Below, piece by piece: positions 17,697 through 19,268 of a stretch of 51,451 nucleotides of DNA. A model generated the notes under the pieces. It was not told the DNA's origin and ran no database searches. It worked only from the letters and a program-made list of their open reading frames with translations. The stretch is from Crocinitomicaceae bacterium (GTDB lineage: Bacteria; Bacteroidota; Bacteroidia; Flavobacteriales_D; Crocinitomicaceae): NCBI GenBank assembly GCA_024639405.1, contig JAHEIL010000050.1, forward strand, positions 1 through 51,451. Reading direction: 5' to 3'. The position numbers and the translations under genes are program-made. Each line of letters starts with the position of its first letter. The first letter of the stretch is position 1.

Positions 17697-17704
17697 TACT
17701 TTTG
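17697..17704 (+). promoter_or_regulatory. -7 box of rbfA
   Basis: TACTTTTG ends 4 nt before the rbfA ATG, so transcription would begin at or beside the start codon. It faces the divergent promoter at 17646-17679. No good -33 element was seen. Confidence 0.55.
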
Positions 17705-17708
17705 CACT

Positions 17709-18044
17709 ATGAGTTCAACAAGACAAAATAAAATTGAAGGTGTAATTCAAGAAGAATTATCTACTTTTTTTCAACGAAATGCGCGTGAAATTTGCTTGGG
17801 TGCAATGGTGAGTGTTACACAAGTTCGTGTAACTTCAGATTTATCATTATCTCGCTGTTACCTAAGTGTTTTTGCTGGTCCTCCAAAAACGGAAGTCTTA
17901 GAAAATATCCAATTAAACAAGGGGAAAATCCGAGGAGAAATTGGAAAACGTTTGAAAAATATGCGGAAAATTCCTGAGTTAATTTTCTTCATTGATGACT
18001 CGTTAGACTACGCTATGAAAATTGAAGAATTACTTAAAAAGTAA
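17709..18044 (+). CDS. rbfA: Ribosome-binding factor A
   Basis: The protein has 111 residues, close to the usual length of RbfA. It opens with RQNKIEGVIQEELSTFFQ and has the typical late segment RGEIGKRLKNMRKIPELIFFIDDSLDYAMKIEELL. RbfA helps mature the 30S ribosomal subunit near the 5' end of 16S rRNA, in the cytoplasm. Its TAA stop (18042-18044) is in the same frame as the following permease gene, whose homologous reading begins 3 nt later, so the two are probably translationally coupled. Confidence 0.95.
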   Translation: MSSTRQNKIEGVIQEELSTFFQRNAREICLGAMVSVTQVRVTSDLSLSRCYLSVFAGPPKTEVLENIQLNKGKIRGEIGKRLKNMRKIPELIFFIDDSLDYAMKIEELLKK

Positions 18045-18047
18045 GCC

Positions 18048-19268
18048 ATCAACGTTTCCTTCTATATCGCCAAACGTTACTTGTCGTCCAAGCGCAAAAA
18101 ATCAATCATTCAATTGATTACGCGGGTTTCTGTTGTTGGTATTGCAACAATTACAGCAGCATTGGTCATACTTTTGTCAGCATTTAACGGCATAGAATCA
18201 CTGATAGAAAAGTTATATTCTGATTTTGATCCAGCAATATCAATCCGATCGAATGCAGGAAAAACTTTTTCTAGTGACCAATTGCCATTAACACGGCTAA
18301 AAAAAATTGAAGGCGTAGAACACCTTACCTATTACATTGAAGAAATTGTTGTGCTTAAACACGAAAAAAAATGGGTCAATGCACACGTTTTAGGTGTTGA
18401 TCCGATTTTCTTAAAGATGTCTAAAGCCAATAAGCACTTAGTTGACGGAACGGCTGCAATTGAAAAGAAAGGCCAATCCGTAGGTTTGATAGGCGCGAAT
18501 TTGCTCGACAAATTGGGTGGTTTTATTCCAGAAAGAGGAACAGAAACCATTCAAATTTACGCGCCTAAAAGAGATGCGAAAATCAGAATTGGCTCGAACC
18601 CATTTACGAGTCGTTTGTTGCAAATAGCAGGAAGAATCAATTACAATAAAGATGTAAATACAGAAAAAATTGTCGTTCCATTGTCTTTTGCACAAGAATT
18701 ATGTGACTATTCAAATTCCGTTTCAGGCATCTTTTTAAGCGTGAAAAAAGGGTATTCAAAAGAAGAAGTCCAAGCGAAAATCAAAGCCCAATTAGGTTCG
18801 AATTTTACAGTAAAAACAGCTGCTGAGAAAAACGAACTAATTTTCAAAACCAGTAAATCAGAAAAAATAATCGTTTTAATTTTGTTGGTATTCATTTTCA
18901 TACTTGCTTCATTTAATTTGATTGCTTCAATTACCGTTTTGTTTATCGAGAAAAAAGACAACATTCAAACAATGATTGGATTTGGAGCCAATCAAAAAAC
19001 ACTGTTTTCAATTTTCTTATGGGAAGGAATTTTGATTGCAGGTAAAGGAATTGTTGTTGGATTAATTATTGGTTATTCCATTTGTATTATACAACTTCAA
19101 ACAGGTATATTAACAATGCCAAATAGCAATGGAGAAGCTTTTCCAATTGTCTTAAAATTGAGTGATGGTTTAACAATCATTTCGTTGGTTTCGTTGATTG
19201 GATTTTTATTCTCTTACCTACCTGTTTATGTGCTTTTGAAGAAAAATTTCGGGCATTTAAACTATTGA
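18048..19268 (+). CDS. LolC/LolE-type ABC transporter permease (FtsX/MacB-like), non-canonical start
   Basis: Read from 18048 the protein begins I-N-V-S-F-Y-I-A-K-R-Y-L-S-S-K-R-K-K-S, the conserved opening of LolC/E-like permeases, but the codon at 18048 is ATC. The first canonical start is TTG at 18081, inside this conserved segment, which would give 395 residues. From ATC it is 406. A first membrane helix (LITRVSVVGIATITAALVIL), a large periplasmic domain and three C-terminal helices (KIIVLILLVFIFILASFNLI, then two more) give the usual four-helix FtsX layout. These permeases pair with an ATPase to move lipoproteins or other cargo out of the inner membrane; no ATPase gene is adjacent. The start is uncertain; the family call is firm. 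Confidence 0.85.
   Translation: MNVSFYIAKRYLSSKRKKSIIQLITRVSVVGIATITAALVILLSAFNGIESLIEKLYSDFDPAISIRSNAGKTFSSDQLPLTRLKKIEGVEHLTYYIEEIVVLKHEKKWVNAHVLGVDPIFLKMSKANKHLVDGTAAIEKKGQSVGLIGANLLDKLGGFIPERGTETIQIYAPKRDAKIRIGSNPFTSRLLQIAGRINYNKDVNTEKIVVPLSFAQELCDYSNSVSGIFLSVKKGYSKEEVQAKIKAQLGSNFTVKTAAEKNELIFKTSKSEKIIVLILLVFIFILASFNLIASITVLFIEKKDNIQTMIGFGANQKTLFSIFLWEGILIAGKGIVVGLIIGYSICIIQLQTGILTMPNSNGEAFPIVLKLSDGLTIISLVSLIGFLFSYLPVYVLLKKNFGHLNY

Follow-up and report, generated by a model that had tools for sequence, protein, structure and literature searches.

The ABC transporter permease gene that follows rbfA in the window analysed here (a 51,451-nucleotide stretch of DNA from a Crocinitomicaceae bacterium) is very probably translated from a weak start codon of its own, the AUC at position 18048, and most members of the bacterial family to which the window belongs have AUU or AUC as the equivalent codon. 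In this interpretation, which draws on sequence comparison, the codon would be read by fMet-tRNA, would give a low output and would often be helped by translation of rbfA. The features of the locus are listed in Table 1.

Table 1. Positions of rbfA, the permease gene and their junction in the window
Feature	Position	Strand	Remarks
rbfA (30S ribosome-binding factor A)	17709..18044	+	ATG start; TAA stop 18042-18044; ORF with PF02033 and TIGR00082
A-run	18036..18040	+	-12 to -8 relative to the AUC, within the 3' end of rbfA
ATC, proposed near-cognate permease start codon	18048..18050	+	aligned start column of the family junctions
LolC/E/F-type ABC transporter permease, 406 aa if started at ATC	18048..19268	+	PF12704, PF02687
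TTG, first canonical start codon of the frame, judged not to be the true start	18081..18083	+	inside the conserved N-terminus

The preliminary description of this DNA had noted that no ATG, GTG or TTG precedes the segment encoding the conserved N-terminus of the permease, that the TTG at 18081 lies inside this segment, and that rbfA and the permease gene are in the same frame. All of this was confirmed from the window sequence. The rbfA gene ends with AAG TAA, which is followed by GCC ATC AAC GTT TCC TTC TAT ATC GCC AAA CGT TAC TTG (18081), with zero ATG, GTG or TTG codons in the permease frame between the TAA and this TTG, and the frame is open throughout 18045-19268. RbfA of the window scored above the cut-offs of PF02033 (E value 1e-28) and TIGR00082. 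The permease exceeded the gathering cut-offs of both its Pfam domains (44.5 bits against 27 for PF12704 and 43.3 against 25.5 for PF02687). It shares the MacB-type core, the FtsX domain and a matching N-terminal segment with LolF, LolE and LolC, but differs from them in that its best NCBIfam match, TIGR02212 (lolCE), reached 160 bits, below the curated cut-off of 362.45; its Lol function is putative.

Matches to the permease were found in all 99 genomes searched, a few of them weak or partial (e.g. in genome G001). Junctions were read in 90 of these genomes and at 80 named loci of a second collection, these being the best 80 of its 283 relatives. After removal of duplicates there were 136 distinct junctions, of which 104 belong to the family of the window and 32 to further families of its order. 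The window's family, which consists mostly of aquatic bacteria, is apparently Crocinitomicaceae; the names in the set include Crocinitomicaceae, Fluviicola, Taishania and Brumimicrobium, some MAGs carry the names of other taxa, and loci present in the second collection only were assigned to the family by similarity. The counts leave out L028 and L117, where a contig end cuts the start, L001, a duplicate of the window, and the nine genomes whose junction was unread, whereas L014 was counted after a one-codon shift of register. The class set comprised 67 loci, two of them (L208 and L263) re-registered by eye, and is a non-random draw from 144 matching class genomes outside the order.

In the 104 family junctions the start column holds ATT in 41, ATC in 40 (39 without L014) and ATA in two, that is, one of these three codons (AUH) in 83 and ATT or ATC in 81. 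A canonical codon stands there in 19 (ATG in eight, GTG in seven, TTG in four), and two junctions (L026 and L053) have TTG or GTG one codon before the column. Alignment of the junctions revealed that the lack of a canonical start described for the window recurs in 80 of the 104: counted from the previous in-frame stop (79 junctions, including that of the window) or from the contig end (one) up to and including the start column, these have no canonical codon. In three loci with AUH at the column, L130, L145 and L153, an in-frame canonical codon does occur upstream, which counts against the proposed start.

No AUH was found in the column among the 32 junctions from other families of the order; TTG (11), GTG (11) and ATG (five) make up 27 of them, and the other five have TTG or GTG one or five codons before the column. 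The 67 class loci start with TTG (27), ATG (22), GTG (16) or CTG (two). ATG is a minority start of this gene both in these order families (5/32) and in the class set (22/67), and, as judged from the aligned codons, weak starts of the permease gene reach across the class. In the two loci with CTG (L228 and L230) the preceding five codons contain no ATG, GTG or TTG, suggesting that near-cognate starts of the permease gene may have arisen more than once. The flanking genes behave differently. Among the 80 AUH loci atpD starts with ATG in 36 of 36 copies, the ABC gene in 58 of 58 and rbfA in 74 of 75, the remaining one having GTG, so that all three are canonical in every copy read, while the permease start is not. 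infC was considered as a second AUU gene of the window genome and was rejected because it starts with ATG.

Sequence conservation was evaluated in the 79 clean AUH loci; as this set had been chosen for clean AUH, its all-Ile column follows from the selection. At the codon just before AUH there is no conservation (3.7 bits); conservation sets in with the codons that follow (about 1 bit, then several at 0). A profile of the family matched LolF, LolE and LolC chains (E values between 3e-30 and 5e-23 for the full-length matches), and its position 3 falls on residue 4-5 of the solved LolF, LolE (7arh) and LolC chains, which indicates that the predicted N-terminus has approximately the expected length.

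A quick tree built from 76 full-length family proteins, with the first four codons excluded and only five canonical-start proteins long enough to be included, served to follow the evolution of the start column. The column underwent 19 changes between ATT and ATC, two involving ATA and three between AUH and canonical codons. Eight control columns of near-constant Ile had, when summed, 109 ATT/ATC changes and 75 ATA changes; a ninth column, at residue 7 (I8 in the alignment), was left out because it is nearly all ATA, and with it the sums are 110 and 78. The deficit of ATA at the start column has a Fisher P of 0.004, a rough value, because the changes counted along a tree depend to some extent on one another. 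Likewise, ATA accounts for 522 of 3,025 Ile codons in the gene bodies and for one of 79 at the start column. Judged by this codon evidence, the start column differs in behaviour from an ordinary Ile codon. Avoidance of AUA is at the same time a point against the favoured explanation, because simple near-cognate initiation does not predict it, AUA starts being reported for S. aureus. As a separate observation, the Ile codon six after the start (homologs of 18066-18068) is ATA in 97 of the 104 family junctions, in 25 of the 32 order junctions and in 35 of the 64 class loci where it was located by pattern, although ATA makes up about 17% of the Ile codons of the gene; the window itself has ATC at 18066-18068.

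Ribosomes of Bacteroidia are described as working without Shine-Dalgarno pairing and as favouring A at -3, -6, -12 and -13 and little structure (PMC6847099, PMC9976891). In the 79 AUH loci, A makes up 70-86% at positions -13 to -10, and A stands at +4 in 76 of the 79. For the other 25 family loci the figure at -13, -12, -11 and -10 is 42% in each case. The upstream A-richness was also seen in 17 loci in which rbfA is distant or was not found (71% at -13, 76% at -12). Adenine frequency is only 51% at -6 and 39% at -3; the latter value speaks against the proposed start, as A at -3 is reported to be a positive base in Flavobacterium johnsoniae. The base composition of the 79 loci gave no indication of a purine-rich Shine-Dalgarno motif, G amounting to at most 15% at each position from -13 to -4. 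A conserved RNA structure over the junction was rejected: in 32 chosen loci there was no conserved fold over the start, but five weak pairs downstream of it (-0.46 kcal/mol), and the fold of the window had a z value of 0.15. The search for an altered initiator or Ile tRNA in the window's own genome gave, when ARAGORN was applied to 30 reported tRNA places, three Met(CAT) and no Ile; this list lacks other expected tRNAs as well (e.g. Ala), the likely reason being that the rRNA operons are missing from the draft.

Four alternatives were considered. An error of sequencing or assembly that turned ATG into ATC, which the preliminary description had mentioned as the dull possibility, could be imagined for a draft genome in 52 contigs. 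The recurrence of ATT or ATC at the column in many MAGs and also in two isolates, Taishania pollutisoli (L105) and Fluviicola chungangensis (L171), excludes it for all practical purposes. Alternatively, translation could begin at the first downstream ATG, GTG or TTG, the conservation upstream being incidental; in the window this would be TTG 18081, and L004 has a TTG in the same place. In the 79 AUH loci, however, the next canonical codon lies anywhere between 11 and 56 codons downstream (median 32; at least 30 in 41 loci), so there is no downstream canonical start that relatives share. Moreover, residues I8, A9 and Y12, which precede that TTG, do not vary among the 15 proteins and the 79 loci compared, the segment is present in the solved Lol chains, and the window protein has its first hydrophobic stretch from about residue 20 onwards. 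Taking these observations together, we consider a downstream start very improbable.

The other two alternatives concern the relation to rbfA, which lies next door in 79 of the 83 loci with AUH at the column (L130, L145 and L153 included). Readthrough of the rbfA TAA to make an RbfA-permease fusion had been offered as an equal option to initiation at 18048, and in the window the identical frames and the open intervening space would permit it. Across these 79 loci rbfA shares the permease frame 28 times, about the one third expected by chance, and the remaining two frames account for 32 and 19; all three stop codons occur (TAA 55, TAG 21, TGA 3), the gaps range from -5 to 118 nt, and the lack of conservation just before AUH also argues against a fusion. 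The readthrough option therefore fails, and its probability appears minimal. Initiation at AUC 18048, in contrast, was strongly supported by the comparison of the junctions. A stronger form of the latter, not exclusive with it, holds that the permease depends wholly on re-initiation after rbfA, its level following rbfA translation. The end of rbfA is indeed -5 to 12 nt from the start in 62 of the 79 clean AUH loci, and several of these junctions overlap the rbfA stop with the permease start (TAATC, ATTAA). On the other hand, the gap is 16 to 118 nt in 14 of the 79; at L166 the upstream sequence available, roughly 230 nt, revealed no rbfA; and the ATT-start permease genes of L146 and L148 follow a gene that by eye is response-regulator/HPt-like, with about 66 nt in between at L148. 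Elsewhere in the order, outside the window's family, the start is non-ATG in 15 of the 16 loci that have rbfA as a neighbour and also in 12 of 16 loci for which the fetched sequence of roughly 600 nt showed no rbfA. Complete dependence is thus a possibility that we hold only tentatively. Of the coupling proposed in the preliminary description, help from rbfA remains plausible, but it is not universal.

If the permease is translated from its own AUC, as we favour, the ordinary initiator fMet-tRNA would read this codon via a third-position mismatch, in a context of A-rich sequence at -13 to -10 and A at +4 instead of a Shine-Dalgarno motif or a conserved fold. Since the start is usually located just after the rbfA stop or overlaps it, ribosomes finishing rbfA could re-initiate there. 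The weak codon would hold the output of this lipoprotein-release-type permease low, probably limiting its dosage, and a low-output constraint of this kind may be what is visible across the class as GTG, TTG or CTG starts. The occurrence of non-ATG starts both with and without rbfA suggests that the constraint lies with the permease itself, the simplest form being that little of it is needed. A more elaborate possibility is that the start serves as a regulatory switch: AUU and AUC would be kept, and AUG and AUA mostly avoided, because the rate at which permease is made would reflect the condition of the 30S subunit at initiation (IF3 stringency, and perhaps an effect via RbfA), linking ribosome assembly to lipoprotein export. 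We regard such a switch as unlikely.

To our knowledge, near-cognate AUU or AUC starts are known from few bacterial genes, and these codons very rarely start genes. In E. coli, infC and pcnB are reported to have AUU start codons (PMC9410913), and the title of a paper in the reference list of that source calls pcnB translationally limited. Like the permease gene, they are chromosomal genes with a near-cognate start; the permease is a different gene in another phylum, with AUC as common as AUU and with no Shine-Dalgarno motif. In S. aureus, profiling is reported to have identified non-canonical starts in cvfC1 (AUU), ccpN and infC (both AUA), cvfC1 and ccpN being described as conserved, and reporter output in RPMI was about 10% of that obtained with AUG, reaching as much as 30% in rich medium in the case of ccpN (PMC13009471). 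As described there, these starts, AUA included, have extended Shine-Dalgarno motifs, whereas the permease starts have no such motif and AUA is nearly absent from them. An AUU start missed by annotation, resulting in a truncated database protein, has been described for pncA (bbe22) of Borrelia burgdorferi (PMC13398362); that case concerns an enzyme of one species, while the trait described here is family-wide and belongs to a permease. The titles and abstract beginnings of the open-access matches listed contained no report of AUU or AUC starts in Bacteroidota or of the start of this permease. Family-wide use of AUU and AUC without a Shine-Dalgarno motif, if true, would mean that third-position-mismatch starts are selectable without such a motif. 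It also predicts that gene callers limited to ATG, GTG and TTG shorten the permease throughout the family, and the permease start could serve as a natural test case for the way in which Bacteroidota set the strictness of their start codons.

Further AUH starts were searched for in two ways. In a count based on coding potential over 451 kb of the window's own genome the permease itself ranked only 124th of 354 genes, which means that this method is blind to AUH starts. Syntenic comparison of starts with seven congeners flagged 19 of 51 ORFs, many of them by spill-over into conserved upstream DNA or by antisense ORFs; the next canonical permease codon of the relatives was scattered at 12 to 39 codons, and some other flagged ORFs were likewise unequal.

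The -7 promoter element of Bacteroidota is TAnnTTTG. Directly 5' of the rbfA ATG, at 17697-17708, is the sequence TACTTTTG, which we take to resemble this element; if it is a promoter element, the mRNA that carries rbfA and the permease gene would have almost no leader. The DNA before the rbfA ATG in this region aligns with that of congeners over 8 to 18 codons.
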